Positions 9,700 to 33,661 of a stretch of 45,380 nucleotides of DNA are shown here, one piece after another. The notes below the pieces were generated by a model. It made no database searches. It was not told the DNA's origin and worked only from the letters and a program-made list of their open reading frames with translations. Source of the stretch: Gammaproteobacteria bacterium. Its GTDB lineage: Bacteria > Pseudomonadota > Gammaproteobacteria > Steroidobacterales > Steroidobacteraceae. The stretch spans positions 1 to 45,380 of the forward strand of contig JANXZQ010000170.1 in the NCBI GenBank assembly GCA_025355445.1, written 5' to 3'. The number at the start of each line of letters is the position of its first letter. The first letter of the stretch is position 1. Both the position numbers and the translations under genes were made by a program.

Positions 9700-9739
9700 A
9701 AAAAGCTCTTTACAGCGCAGCCGGATCAGTCGCATAGTA

Positions 9740-9839
9740 GGCGCGCTGTTCAAGGGCAAACCCGCCGAAAGGTGGGGACGCAAAGCCACCGGTCTAAGGG
9801 GCTTCCCTCATGGGGAAGCCTGACGATAGCGGGGTCGCC
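9740..9839 (+). ncRNA. GEMM-I cyclic di-GMP riboswitch aptamer (c-di-GMP-I)
   Basis: CAAGGGCAAACCCGCCGAAAGGTGGGGACGCAAAGCCACCGGTCTAAGG-GGCTTCCCTCATGGGGAAGCC-TGACGATAGCGGGGTCGCC matches the GEMM-I layout (P2 with GAAA tetraloop, GGACGCAAAGCC, CCGGTCTAAG receptor, P3 hairpin, AGCGGGG); P1 GGCG/CGCC. Confidence 0.93.
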
Positions 9840-9883
9840 AGTCATTCAGTGCGTTACGCACCTCAGAACCATCCGGTTTTGTG

Positions 9884-9930
9884 TCCCCCTGACAGTACGC
9901 GGCATCAGCTTTAGTACGTCTTCCGGGGGA
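9884..9930 (+). promoter_or_regulatory. Putative expression-platform hairpin sequestering the Shine-Dalgarno of the downstream CDS
   Basis: TCCCCC (9884-9889) is perfectly complementary to GGGGGA (9925-9930), which lies 5 nt before ATG 9936; inner GAC/GTC and GTAC/GTAC pairings extend the stem. Confidence 0.7.
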
Positions 9931-9935
9931 AGCAC

Positions 9936-11294
9936 ATGGTCAGCAAAGTCACTCGTTCGCCGGGCGCGGATTCATCGGGTATTTATCGCCGCCCGCGGCT
10001 CGTTCTCAAGGTCAAGCGCTTCGAGGACATTCCCATCCTGTTGGGCAAGAACAAGAGCTATCCCACCCCCATTCGCATCGTCGGCGCCGACTATTCGCAG
10101 ACTCGCTGCGTGGGCGGTGACGGCGGCACGACGGTCGACACCGGCGGCCTCGATAAAATCCTCGAATTCGGCGAAACCTCCGTCCGGGCGCAGGCTGGCG
10201 TGCGCGTGGGCACGCTGGTGCGCGCGCTTGCCGAACGCGGCTTGGAATTACCGCTGACCCCCGAAATCGGCCAGATTTCCTTGGGCGCCGTGGCCGTCAC
10301 CACCTTGCCGCAAGCCTCCTACGGCGCCGGCATGGCGCAGCTGTCGTCCTGCGTGACCGAAATCAAATTGATCACGCCGCAGGGCAAGCAGATGACCGTC
10401 ACGGAGCGGGATCGCGACCTGATGCGCGTGTTACGTTCGAGCTTCGGCTTGCTGGGCGTGGTGCACGAGGTAGAGCTGCGGGTGCGGCCGCTTACGCCGG
10501 TCAAGATCGACTATCAAGTGTTGACCCTCAAAGAATTCTCAGGCCGCTTCACCTCCATCGTGCAGGCGCCCGGGGCGCTGCGACTGCATATCTCGCCCTT
10601 CACCGACAAGATCACCGTCGAACGCCGCACCCTCGACGAAACCGCGTCCGTGAGCCGTTCCGGAATTTGGCAGGTACGCAATTCCGTGATGCGCAATGTG
10701 TTGCCGGCTTTCGGTTCCACCGTCGGTAGCGTCTTGGCGGCGCCCGGCCTGCGCAATGCCATGCTGTCGGGCGTGCAGCGCGCGCTGCGCGCCACTCTGG
10801 ACCGGGCCGCTCGCGGCGTGGTGCTCTATGCGCACGAGTGGATGCGCGACATGCCGAACGAGGCGTGGAAGGCGCGGCACACCTACAGTCTGTGGGCATT
10901 TCCCCAGGCGGATTACCCAAAAATGCTCGCCGAGTACTTCAATTTCTGCAAGTCGTACTACAAGGAGCATCGTTACCGCTCCAACGTGGTCAGCGGCGCC
11001 AGCCGGCTGCACCAGGATCGCGGTTCCTTGTTCAGCGTGAGTTATACCGGCCCCATGTTCACCCTGGAGCCATCTTCCTCCGGCGACAGCGGCTGGGATG
11101 ACTTTCTCATCGACTTCAACGATTTCGCATCGGCCTTGGGCGGCACGCCCACCTTCAATCAAACGCGCGCTTTGCAGGTTGAGCACGTGACCAAATCTTT
11201 CGGCGAGCGCGCCAAATTGTTCCGCGCGCTGCGCCAAAGGACGGATCCGCTCAATCGGCTGCGCAACGGCTACTTCGCATACCTGCTGGGGTGA
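9936..11294 (+). CDS. FAD-binding (PCMH-type) oxidoreductase, D-arabinono-1,4-lactone oxidase-like
   Basis: FAD-binding region PIRIVGADYSQTRCVGGDGGTTVDTGGLDKILEF...VRAQAGVRVGTLVRALAERGLELPLTPEIGQISLGAVAVT. Confidence 0.85.
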   Translation: MVSKVTRSPGADSSGIYRRPRLVLKVKRFEDIPILLGKNKSYPTPIRIVGADYSQTRCVGGDGGTTVDTGGLDKILEFGETSVRAQAGVRVGTLVRALAERGLELPLTPEIGQISLGAVAVTTLPQASYGAGMAQLSSCVTEIKLITPQGKQMTVTERDRDLMRVLRSSFGLLGVVHEVELRVRPLTPVKIDYQVLTLKEFSGRFTSIVQAPGALRLHISPFTDKITVERRTLDETASVSRSGIWQVRNSVMRNVLPAFGSTVGSVLAAPGLRNAMLSGVQRALRATLDRAARGVVLYAHEWMRDMPNEAWKARHTYSLWAFPQADYPKMLAEYFNFCKSYYKEHRYRSNVVSGASRLHQDRGSLFSVSYTGPMFTLEPSSSGDSGWDDFLIDFNDFASALGGTPTFNQTRALQVEHVTKSFGERAKLFRALRQRTDPLNRLRNGYFAYLLG

Positions 11295-11305: not shown

Positions 11306-11326
11306 CCGGCTCACCCTACAAGCCGG
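11306..11326. terminator. Possible hairpin between convergent genes (no clear T tract)
   Basis: CCGGCT-caccctaca-AGCCGG inverted repeat between the oxidase (+) and PH/SHOCT gene (-). Confidence 0.3.
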
Positions 11327-11978
11327 AGACGATCTTCGCCTTGATCGACTCGAATTCGGAGTCGCTGATGAGCTTGGCATCGAGCATTTCGCGCGCCTGC
11401 CGCAACCGTCGCACAGGCTCCGACTCCGCTGCGGCCGTTGCCGTGGCGGCCATTGCCGCGCCCGCGACACCCGCCCCGTCCGCCCCGCCGTAGGCGTTTT
11501 GGCTGCCAATTTGCACTCCGCCGGATTTGGCGCGCAATTCCTCGAGTTCCCGGATACGGCGCTTCTCGCGCCAGACTTGGTCGTGCTGCTGGCAAATGCG
11601 GTACATGCCCTGCGCCTGATCCTTGCGCAGTCCCGCAAAAGTCCATACGCGATTCACTTCCGATCCGATATTGAGGTCCGAACTGCTCTGCGCAACCAAG
11701 GTCAGATCGGCCGCGAGAATTCCAGCGCTGATGCGGGTCTCCTTGAGGTCCTGCCAACGGATGTCGGCCGACTCGTAGCCGCCGAGCAGGCGTCGCTTGA
11801 GTGTTATGAAGCGTCCGCTGGTGGCGGCAATGCAGGCGCGGCGATGGGTCAGCGCAAACAGGCGGTGTTGTACCGCCCATGCTTCCAAAGTCTCTCCGGC
11901 CGTGAGCAGCCCGCGCAATAGGGCGAGCGCCGCTTCGAGCCCGGGCTCCTGCGCAATGCTTGGGGAGGGATCGGACAT
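11316..11978 (-). CDS. PH-domain-like / SHOCT domain protein
   Basis: PH-like N-terminal half and C-terminal SHOCT-like VRRLRQAREMLDAKLISDSEFESIKAKIVSGL. Confidence 0.65.
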   Translation of the reverse strand: MSDPSPSIAQEPGLEAALALLRGLLTAGETLEAWAVQHRLFALTHRRACIAATSGRFITLKRRLLGGYESADIRWQDLKETRISAGILAADLTLVAQSSSDLNIGSEVNRVWTFAGLRKDQAQGMYRICQQHDQVWREKRRIRELEELRAKSGGVQIGSQNAYGGADGAGVAGAAMAATATAAAESEPVRRLRQAREMLDAKLISDSEFESIKAKIVSGL

Positions 11979-12460
11979 CAAGCCTTCTCCTGCAGATGAG
12001 CCTCGATGAACCACAGATACTTGTCCACGTCGCGGGAAATTCCCGTGAATAGATCGGCCGTACCGGCGTCGCCCAGCTTGGCGGTGTCGTCGATCGCCGC
12101 CCGCACCGCCTTTCCATAGACCGACAGCTGCGTCGATAAATAGAATAGATGATCCTTGCCGGCCGTGATGCTCAAGGGATAATTTTTCAGTTTGCTGCGC
12201 TTGGCGGCGACCGCAACCGTACCCTCCGCCGTGCCGCCCAAGGCCGTGATCCGCTCGGCGATTTCATCAATCTGCTCCAGCGCCAGGGCCGAAATCTTAT
12301 CGAATAGTTCGTGCAACGCGATGAAATTGGGACCCTTGACGTTCCAGTGGGCTTGCTTGACCTGGCTCTGCAAATCGATGGCATAGGCCAATCGATCATT
12401 CAATATCAAAATGACATTGCGGCGGACCTTCTCGGTCAGGTCAATCTTGGTCTTGTACAT
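11978..12460 (-). CDS. dps: Dps/ferritin-like DNA-binding starvation protein
   Basis: LQSQVKQAHWNVKGPNFIALHELFDKISALALEQIDEIAERITALGG typical of Dps; start 12460 (MYKTKIDLTEK). Confidence 0.9.
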   Translation of the reverse strand: MYKTKIDLTEKVRRNVILILNDRLAYAIDLQSQVKQAHWNVKGPNFIALHELFDKISALALEQIDEIAERITALGGTAEGTVAVAAKRSKLKNYPLSITAGKDHLFYLSTQLSVYGKAVRAAIDDTAKLGDAGTADLFTGISRDVDKYLWFIEAHLQEKA

Positions 12461-31264: not shown

Positions 31265-33508
31265 TTACGCTGACTTCGGTTCGCCGGCCCAGGCACTGAC
31301 GGTGGCTTCGTAGATTGCCAATTCCTGCAGCAGCTCCTCGAGGGGTTGTGCCTTGCCCATCGCAAAGCCTTGGCCGTAGTCGACCCCCAAATCCGCCATC
31401 CGCGCGCGCAGCATGTCGGTCTCGACATACTCTGCAATGGTTTCCATGCACATGACCTTCGCCAGCTGCGCGATGGCCTTGATCATTGACTCGGAGCGCG
31501 CATTGACGATGGCATCCCGCACGAAGCTGCCGTCGATCTTCAGATAGTTGACCGATAGATCCTTAAGATACGCCAGCGAACTTACGCCGGTTCCGAAATC
31601 ATCGAGCGCGAACTGGCAGCCGAGATCCTGCAGATTGCGTATGAAATTCTGCGCCTTGACCAGGTTGCCGATGGTAGCGGTCTCGGTCAATTCGAAGCAA
31701 AGGACACCGGGCGGCAGATTGCTGGCCTTGATCTCGTCGATCACGTACGGAAGAAATGTGTCGTCCTGCAAAGATTGGCCGGACAGGTTGATGGCGAAAC
31801 GGGCAATGTCCTCGCCCACCGACGCGCTGTGCGCACCGAGCAGCCGGCAAGAGCGGTGCACCACCCAGCGATCGATGGTCGGCATGAGCTGGTAGCGCTC
31901 GGCCGCGGAGAGAAACTTGCCGGGCGGAATGATTTCGCCGCGGTCACCCAGCATGCGGATCAGCAATTCGAAACGCGGCCGGCCATAGTTGCCGCGCAGC
32001 GGCAGAATGGGCTGTGCGTCGAGACGGAAACTGTCATTGGCGAGCGCGTCGCGCAACTGGCCGATGACCATGATGTCGGTGTGGCGGCGGATGATGCTCT
32101 GATCCGAATCCTGGAATATCTCGACGCGATCACGGCCTCGATCCTTTGCAGCCTTGCAGGCGATCTCGGCGGTCGCCAAGGCATGAGCAAGCGCGTTGTC
32201 CGAGCGGCCTATGGGCGCGACGCCGAGACACACGGACACCTCAAAAGAGCCTTGGCCGGCACGCGGCACGATGGCGGCGGCGGCAGCGCGAATTTTCTCG
32301 GCGGCGGCCGCCGCCGCTTCCATGCTGGTCCTCGGTATCAGAGCGGCAAGCCGGTCTCCGGAAATACGTGCCGACAAGGCGCCCGTAGGCAGCGCCTTGG
32401 CCATGCACTCGGCTACGCTCGCGATCACATCGTCGCCCACGTGCATGCCGAAGGTCTCGTTGATGACATGCAGACGATCGATGTCGAGGTACAGGATGAT
32501 GTGGGGGCCAGCCGTTGCCGTGGACGCGAGCAGGGCCGCGGCCTGGCCTTCGAAAGCCTGGCGGGTCATCAGGCCGGTGCTGGCGTCGTATTGAGCCTGA
32601 ATGATGCTGGTCGCCCGCTTCGCCAGGGCTTCGGCGATACGCGTTTGATGCAGGTCGAAGTCCTGCGCGCTCGGCGGATTGAACATGGCAAGCACGCCCA
32701 TGACCCGTTCCGAGGAATGCCGCACCGGACAGGCAAGGATCTTGTACGGTGCGGCCACGTCGCTTGCGACCTTGGAAATATGATTGATTACGATGGTGCG
32801 CTGCTGTAGCTGCATCCAGGCCATCAAATGCTGCTGCGCCCGCTGCAATGATTCAGGTGACATGGGCTGGCCGCTGCGGGTCAGCGACAGCGCGATGTTC
32901 TTGTCGGGCACCCACAACGCCGCAAGCGCGCAGCCCGTGCGCTCGAGCCCGGTCTTCATGATCAGGCTGAATTCGTCGGTGTCGTTCGAAGACGTCGATT
33001 GTTGCGAGGATATTTCCAGCATGAGGTTGAGGTCGCGTTCACGCACGCCGAGATCGCGCTCGCGAGAACCCAATTTGGAGCGCAGCGAGAGCTCGCGTCG
33101 CAGACACTCCAGTGCCGGCTGTACCAGTTGGCGCACCGTCTGCAAAGGCCGCGCTTCCGTCAGCGAGCCGGAGAGGCGGGCGATCAGGCTGACGACCCCG
33201 AGCAACTCGATCTGCTCGCCGCGTATTGCAAAGGAATAGACGGCCCGGTCGGCGTCGAGCGTCCGCACGATGCCGGCGAATTCCGCCGTATCCGACAAGG
33301 CGTTGGCGATGGCCGCGTTTATCACCTCAGGCTCATCGGCGAGATCCAACTCATCCGAGGCCCACACCAGGTTGGAGAAGCCGTCGTGCACGACCACGCC
33401 GCGCAAACTCGGCATGAGCATGCGAAGCAAACGGCCATAGGGCTCGAACGAGGCGTCCACGGCGGGGCTCTCGATCGCGTTTGACTTGGTTTCCAGCACT
33501 ACTGCCAT
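31265..33508 (-). CDS. GGDEF/EAL protein with N-terminal sensory region; GGDEF site degenerate
   Basis: GGDEF site reads SGDRL; EAL motifs FELLIRM, INLSGQSL, FELTETATI, ALDDFGTGVSSLAYL, YLKIDGSFVRD, AEYVE, YGQGF; start 33508 (MAVVLETKSNA). Confidence 0.9.
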   Translation of the reverse strand: MAVVLETKSNAIESPAVDASFEPYGRLLRMLMPSLRGVVVHDGFSNLVWASDELDLADEPEVINAAIANALSDTAEFAGIVRTLDADRAVYSFAIRGEQIELLGVVSLIARLSGSLTEARPLQTVRQLVQPALECLRRELSLRSKLGSRERDLGVRERDLNLMLEISSQQSTSSNDTDEFSLIMKTGLERTGCALAALWVPDKNIALSLTRSGQPMSPESLQRAQQHLMAWMQLQQRTIVINHISKVASDVAAPYKILACPVRHSSERVMGVLAMFNPPSAQDFDLHQTRIAEALAKRATSIIQAQYDASTGLMTRQAFEGQAAALLASTATAGPHIILYLDIDRLHVINETFGMHVGDDVIASVAECMAKALPTGALSARISGDRLAALIPRTSMEAAAAAAEKIRAAAAAIVPRAGQGSFEVSVCLGVAPIGRSDNALAHALATAEIACKAAKDRGRDRVEIFQDSDQSIIRRHTDIMVIGQLRDALANDSFRLDAQPILPLRGNYGRPRFELLIRMLGDRGEIIPPGKFLSAAERYQLMPTIDRWVVHRSCRLLGAHSASVGEDIARFAINLSGQSLQDDTFLPYVIDEIKASNLPPGVLCFELTETATIGNLVKAQNFIRNLQDLGCQFALDDFGTGVSSLAYLKDLSVNYLKIDGSFVRDAIVNARSESMIKAIAQLAKVMCMETIAEYVETDMLRARMADLGVDYGQGFAMGKAQPLEELLQELAIYEATVSAWAGEPKSA

Positions 33509-33661
33509 CCTGGCGATTTCGATGGTATGCAACTCACGACTTAATGTGCTGCAGGGGCGCCGCAGCGTCTTTGATCGGAGTCGCAATTCAACGTAATAAG
33601 TACAGGGTTTTCCCTACGGGCCTGGCAATATCCACGCAGCTGTGTGATGTGGATCGCAGAT

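Follow-up and report, generated by a model that had tools for sequence, protein, structure and literature searches.

A predicted translational c-di-GMP-I OFF riboswitch preceding the gene for a VAO-type FAD-linked oxidase in Gammaproteobacteria

The leader of an FAD-linked oxidase gene in a Steroidobacteraceae genome probably functions as a translational c-di-GMP-I OFF riboswitch, serving a single-gene unit that encodes a VAO-type enzyme. The locus is situated in a stretch of 45,380 nucleotides (contig JANXZQ010000170.1, referred to throughout as the window, positions being those of the whole stretch). Binding of c-di-GMP would hold the 5' strand GCTGTTCAAGGGC in the aptamer, leaving the arm TGTGTCCCCCTGACAGT free to pair with GGGGGAAGCAC and to hide the Shine-Dalgarno (SD) sequence, in which state the oxidase would not be made. 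When c-di-GMP is absent, the 5' strand would instead take the arm (GCTGTT with GACAGT, GGG with CCC), the aptamer would open and the SD would be released, with production of the oxidase predicted at low c-di-GMP. With somewhat less assurance, the balance of the comparative data favours the view that this oxidase family constitutes, in a gammaproteobacterial clade (Steroidobacteraceae/Woeseiaceae-labelled), a c-di-GMP output that is dedicated and had not been described before, kept through changes of neighbourhood, and that the switch operates by mimicry, the SD imitating the aptamer 5' strand, one anti-SD arm being common to both, and the arm of Woeseiaceae-type leaders pairing with the ligand-recognising CAAAGGCAC itself. 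The features concerned, all on the forward (+) strand, are as follows.

9709 to 9738, + strand: promoter, comprising TTTACA (9709-9714), 18 nt and CATAGT (9733-9738), from a consensus scan.
9745 to 9842, + strand: c-di-GMP-I (GEMM-I) riboswitch aptamer, RF01051, with key positions mapped by script.
9745 to 9757, + strand: aptamer 5' strand, proposed to exchange between the aptamer (ligand bound) and the anti-SD arm (ligand free).
9849 to 9861, + strand: small linker hairpin GTGCG-TTA-CGCAC, from the sequence; a short hairpin is predicted here in many relatives.
9867 to 9878, + strand: small linker hairpin AACC-ATCC-GGTT, in the minimum free energy (MFE) fold and present in close relatives.
9880 to 9896, + strand: anti-SD arm, whose CCCCC has two alternative partners, the SD and the GGG of the aptamer 5' strand.
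9920 to 9935, + strand: SD region CTTCCGGGGGAAGCAC, containing the SD GGGGGA.
9936 to 11,294, + strand: FAD-linked oxidase, 452 amino acids, FAD_binding_4 / VAO fold, from PF01565 and an AlphaFold2 model.

An Infernal search against all of Rfam 15, the check that had been suggested for a near-canonical GEMM-I aptamer, bore out that description: RF01051 was matched over the full model (1-87) with a score of 69.8 bits (E 8.9e-12), compared with a gathering score of 35 bits, and was the sole Rfam match within the window. The motif TT[TG]ACA-N17/18-CATA[GT]T is found at the same place in all 20 related leaders and ends 6-7 nt 5' of the (G/A)CTG that opens the aptamer 5' strand. Given this spacing, the RNA should begin with the aptamer, the transcript probably starting at about position 9745, approximately the aptamer's first base. 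The aptamer is followed by one or two small hairpins, the anti-SD arm and then the SD.

Pairing of TCCCCC (9884-9889) with the GGGGGA of the SD (9925-9930), 5 nt before the ATG at 9936, is as claimed in the original prediction. The MFE fold of the 47-nt element (9884-9930) comprises this stem together with GAC/GTC and GTAC/GTAC pairs (-19.4 kcal/mol, z -2.7), but the true stem is longer than that element, with TGT (9880-9882) pairing outward with GCA (9932-9934) to give -22.8 kcal/mol over 57 nt. Judged on the window sequence by itself, the hairpin exceeds what chance would give by a small margin, with about 5.8-8% of shuffled linkers pairing as well with the SD region (p about 0.06) and with several ordinary genes in the window having SD-region pairing of similar energy; hence it is conservation in relatives that makes the hairpin real. 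An SD pairing is present in 16/16 leaders of the GGGG-SD type, with energies of -14.8 to -20.5 kcal/mol and with arms that differ in sequence (CCCCTTAGG/CCTACAGGGG in L011, CCTTGGAACGG/CCGTTCCAGGG in L015, CGTCCCCT/AGGGGTGACG in L016). The hairpin and the target gene, the conservation of which had been put forward as a check, are thus both conserved, and the proposal of an SD-sequestering hairpin is supported. Relatives do not keep the inner GAC/GTC and GTAC/GTAC pairs; what they retain there is (G)ACAGC, for which pairing with the aptamer 5' strand is a better explanation than inner hairpin pairs. A separate arrangement is seen in the subclade L022-L025, which is without the CCCCC/GGGGG hairpin and has long-range TTCGATC/GATCGAA and GTGCC/GGCAC pairing across the start codon instead. 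The 5' arm of this pairing is directly 3' of the aptamer, and TTCGATC/GATCGAA seems to cover the start codon.

Besides the SD, the anti-SD arm in the window has a second complement in the 5' strand of the aptamer itself, and this complementarity recurs in the same position in 18/20 relatives. The window sequence places GCTGTT (9745-9750) opposite GACAGT (9891-9896) and GGG (9754-9756) opposite CCC within 9885-9889. In 18 of 20 leaders, the downstream segment that best complements the 15-nt 5' strand of the aptamer is on the anti-SD arm or, in L022-L025, on the aligned counterpart CGCCCGG(G/A)ACAGCC. The exceptions are L007 and L011, in which the best complement is elsewhere, L011 being without the ACAGC motif. 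The pairing is kept with other letters in L015 (GCTGTTCAAGGGC/GCCTTGGAACGGC), L016 (GCTGTCA-GGG/CCC-TGACGGC) and L020 (CTGTTC--GGGC/GCCC--GAACAG). Leaders of the Woeseiaceae-type clade have a single conserved arm, GGTGTCTTTGGCA, with two pairing partners, namely the SD TGCTGGAGACAT (at up to -16 kcal/mol) and the aptamer CAAAGGCAC, which holds the ligand-selecting G. In the Woeseiaceae-type alignment the helix CAAAGGCAC/GTGTCTTTG is paired in 133/135 cells (98.5%), compared with 26-53% for slid versions, and in L117 a CCGCTGAAC/GTTCAGCGG pairing adjoins the anti-SD arm. Formal covariation within each clade does not exceed that of shuffles, the helices being nearly invariant. Since helices that hardly vary within clades yield covariation counts that neither support nor refute the pairing, a between-clade swap test was used, in which the 5' strand and platform of the same leader paired better than swapped combinations across six leader groups (mean interaction -2.5 kcal/mol, permutation p 0.003). 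Exchange of the P3 strand GGCTTCCC (9800-9807) with the SD copy GGGGGAAGC was also considered, and was rejected since P3 varies freely in relatives whereas the SD does not.

The original prediction held that the direction of control could not be read from sequence. Comparison of the leaders nevertheless predicts translational OFF control, since the SD and the aptamer 5' strand, both complementary to the one arm, would compete for it. Folding of the 20 leaders with the aptamer enforced left the SD closed or unchanged, at most 0.02 more open than in the free ensemble, and enforcing the alternative helix opened it to 0.40-0.58 in 14/16 GGGG-SD-type leaders; the free energy of the alternative-helix state is mostly within a few kcal/mol of that of the aptamer-formed state. 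The OFF prediction is uneven across relatives, in that the ligand-free state is not open in every leader, the SD being mostly closed in the free ensemble of L009, L015, L020 and L021 according to secondary-structure energies. A local CTTCC/GGAAG palindrome in the SD region may loop out part of the G-run once the anti-SD arm is removed, and even in the ON state would keep the SD partly sequestered.

A predicted SD that is mostly closed when ligand-free in several leaders, and the existence of both ON and OFF GEMM-I riboswitches (PMC9262584), would also suit a translational ON switch in which c-di-GMP opens the SD hairpin, for example if a sequence set free as aptamer P1 forms were to capture the anti-SD arm. 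This arrangement is considered unlikely, however, since besides the SD the sole conserved complement found for the arm is the aptamer 5' strand, which is occupied on ligand binding, and since enforcing the aptamer never opened the SD beyond the 0.02 noted above. A somewhat poorer prospect is that the main effect of the aptamer is on transcription or on the stability of the RNA, by intrinsic or Rho termination, with the SD hairpin being incidental. Some GEMM-I platforms are indeed terminators (PMC6456294, PMC11218506), and translational repression can feed back on RNA levels, but a terminator scan revealed no terminator-like site, in support of the absence of a terminator, and in two clades that differ in sequence the partner whose pairing is conserved is the SD itself.

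With regard to the ligand, script mapping places G 9755 at G20 and A 9782 at A47 of Vc2 (G11 and A38 in aptamer numbering, after PMC11218506). Since these are the residues of a c-di-GMP binder, the ligand of the window aptamer is predicted to be c-di-GMP, in agreement with the original view that the aptamer is of the c-di-GMP rather than the cGAMP type. The G at position 20 is invariant across the aligned genus leaders; an A at this position is the mark of the cGAMP type, and the A20G change turns a cGAMP aptamer to c-di-GMP selectivity (PMC6456294). Identity as a GEMM-Ib (cGAMP) aptamer, which calls for A20, was consequently rejected on finding G at 9755, as was identity as c-di-GMP-I-GGC (RF03167), which requires G at position 47, on finding A at 9782. 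That the aptamer senses another dinucleotide, such as the cGAMP of GEMM-Ib aptamers, or a variant ligand, is very improbable, for although RF03167 gives the top score for several leaders of distant orthologues, G occupies the c-di-GMP-selecting position and the A at position 47 is kept in the RF03167-scoring relatives also. In the leaders of distant orthologues L095, L097, L104, L105, L106, L108, L110 and L112, GGCAC replaces GGCAA and GUC replaces GAC before GCAAA; RF03167 is the best-scoring model for these aptamers although the A absent from that variant is kept, and the C of GGCAC lengthens the pairing with the anti-SD arm.

A riboswitch is present directly upstream of an oxidase orthologue in at least 43 species, and the enzyme thus looks like a dedicated output of c-di-GMP signalling. 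Close orthologues are carried by 21 genomes of the genus (own genome included), 19 of which have RF01051 less than 250 nt upstream of the oxidase on the same strand, and a riboswitch also precedes the oxidase in one further genus of the family (G024). A protein-alignment scan of 84,980 species genomes returned 58 loci. In a distant gammaproteobacterial clade, with orthologues that are 28-32% identical and many members titled Woeseiaceae, a c-di-GMP-I aptamer is located just upstream in 23/23 members with upstream sequence. The riboswitch is absent from homologues in Acidobacteria, Chloroflexi and Nitrospirales (L084-L086, L089, L092, L113, L118), and from upstream of the homologue in a separate gammaproteobacterial group (L088, L091). 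Three changes of the riboswitch label are required on a maximum-likelihood tree, a number that agrees with one gain followed by two losses (L074, L071); the fork that unites the two riboswitch-bearing clades has moderate support (92/82) and involves long branches. At L013/L071 (G018) the SD hairpin is kept but the aptamer's 5' part has been replaced, L071 retaining only the aptamer 3' end, and at L017/L074 (G001) the aptamer is gone. These two genus members with a lost switch would be natural test cases for expression. The oxidase of the window has as a neighbour a Na+/H+ antiporter with TrkA domains, whereas at the Woeseiaceae-type locus L097 the neighbours are PLD, PadR and HlyD proteins. 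Since flanking genes differ between the clades, the riboswitch appears to follow the oxidase as opposed to the neighbourhood, and no pathway is inferable from these differing neighbours.

The original assignment of a single FAD-linked oxidase as the target is supported by a match to PF01565 (FAD_binding_4; E 2.1e-13, 50.6 bits against a gathering score of 26.4), and the next ORF in the 3' direction (11311-12117) is on the opposite strand, so that the transcription unit appears to be single-gene. The protein falls below the cut-off of all named NCBIfam subfamilies, scoring 84.3 bits with TIGR01679 (a bacterial FAD-linked oxidoreductase subfamily), under the curated cut-off of 292. The AlphaFold2 model (mean pLDDT 79) matches L-galactono-1,4-lactone dehydrogenase in Foldseek (E 6.5e-24, TM 0.70), and also alditol oxidase, cholesterol oxidase and DprE1 (TM about 0.7). 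The fold and FAD domain are thereby shared with VAO aldonolactone and alditol oxidoreductases (L-galactonolactone dehydrogenase, alditol oxidase, DprE1), from which the window oxidase nevertheless differs in being only 14-20% identical over the structure. On the basis of the model, the enzyme is probably related to the aldonolactone and alditol oxidoreductases and sugar-oxidase-like.

Several observations indicate that c-di-GMP signalling is likely to be active in the host, whose genome has 26 GGDEF domains, one of them within the window, and three GEMM-I aptamers. The window copy is in a 773-aa ORF at 31265-33586 (- strand) with a GGDEF domain of the diguanylate cyclase type. A second GEMM-I aptamer (L002) precedes a pilM-like gene, as read by eye, and the third (L003; G000:C477:37462-37549, - strand) is situated before an ORF that starts with an apparent signal peptide.

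Riboswitches for c-di-GMP are known mostly for motility, pili and matrix genes. The riboswitch class described here is ordinary, whereas the oxidase is a new conserved target; a literature search, mostly without subscription papers, returned nothing relevant on a c-di-GMP riboswitch paired with an FAD-linked oxidase. The retention of the switch in front of one flavoenzyme across these species would make the enzyme part of the motile/sessile programme, and an enzyme made when c-di-GMP is low would belong to the motile or dispersing state. The host group is large, mostly uncultured, and found in soil and sediment, and the pairing with a riboswitch provides a handle on the role of the enzyme. The anti-SD arm common to the SD and the 5' strand, which different clades have rebuilt from different sequences, also makes a clear comparative case of the coupling of a translational platform to a GEMM-I aptamer, from which the OFF direction follows as a direct prediction.

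A redox target is indeed unusual for GEMM-I, as originally proposed, but the contrast drawn with the commoner targets is tempered by precedent, since in Geobacter there are cytochrome genes with GEMM-Ib aptamers in front of them (PMC6456294). The cGAMP riboswitches of that genus (pgcA, omcAHG) resemble the window riboswitch in placing a GEMM-I scaffold before redox genes; unlike it, they have A20, respond to cGAMP and are ON switches that employ a transcription terminator/antiterminator (PMC6456294). The c-di-GMP-I-GGC family (RF03167) is of the same clan, and its cut-off is exceeded by some leaders of distant orthologues. However, its consensus has G at the Vc2 A47 position (CGCGAA), where the leaders studied here have A, and the window aptamer is plain RF01051. 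The closest parallel in mode is with Vc2 of Vibrio cholerae tfoY, which belongs to the same aptamer class and which, going by the title of Inuzuka 2018 as given in PMC7371385 and by PMC9262584, is a translational OFF switch that masks the RBS away from the aptamer, the same mode as is predicted for the window. The Vc2 target is TfoY (motility, type VI secretion), whereas that of the window is an oxidase; the likeness between the two lies in the aptamer class and in the OFF mode predicted for the window.
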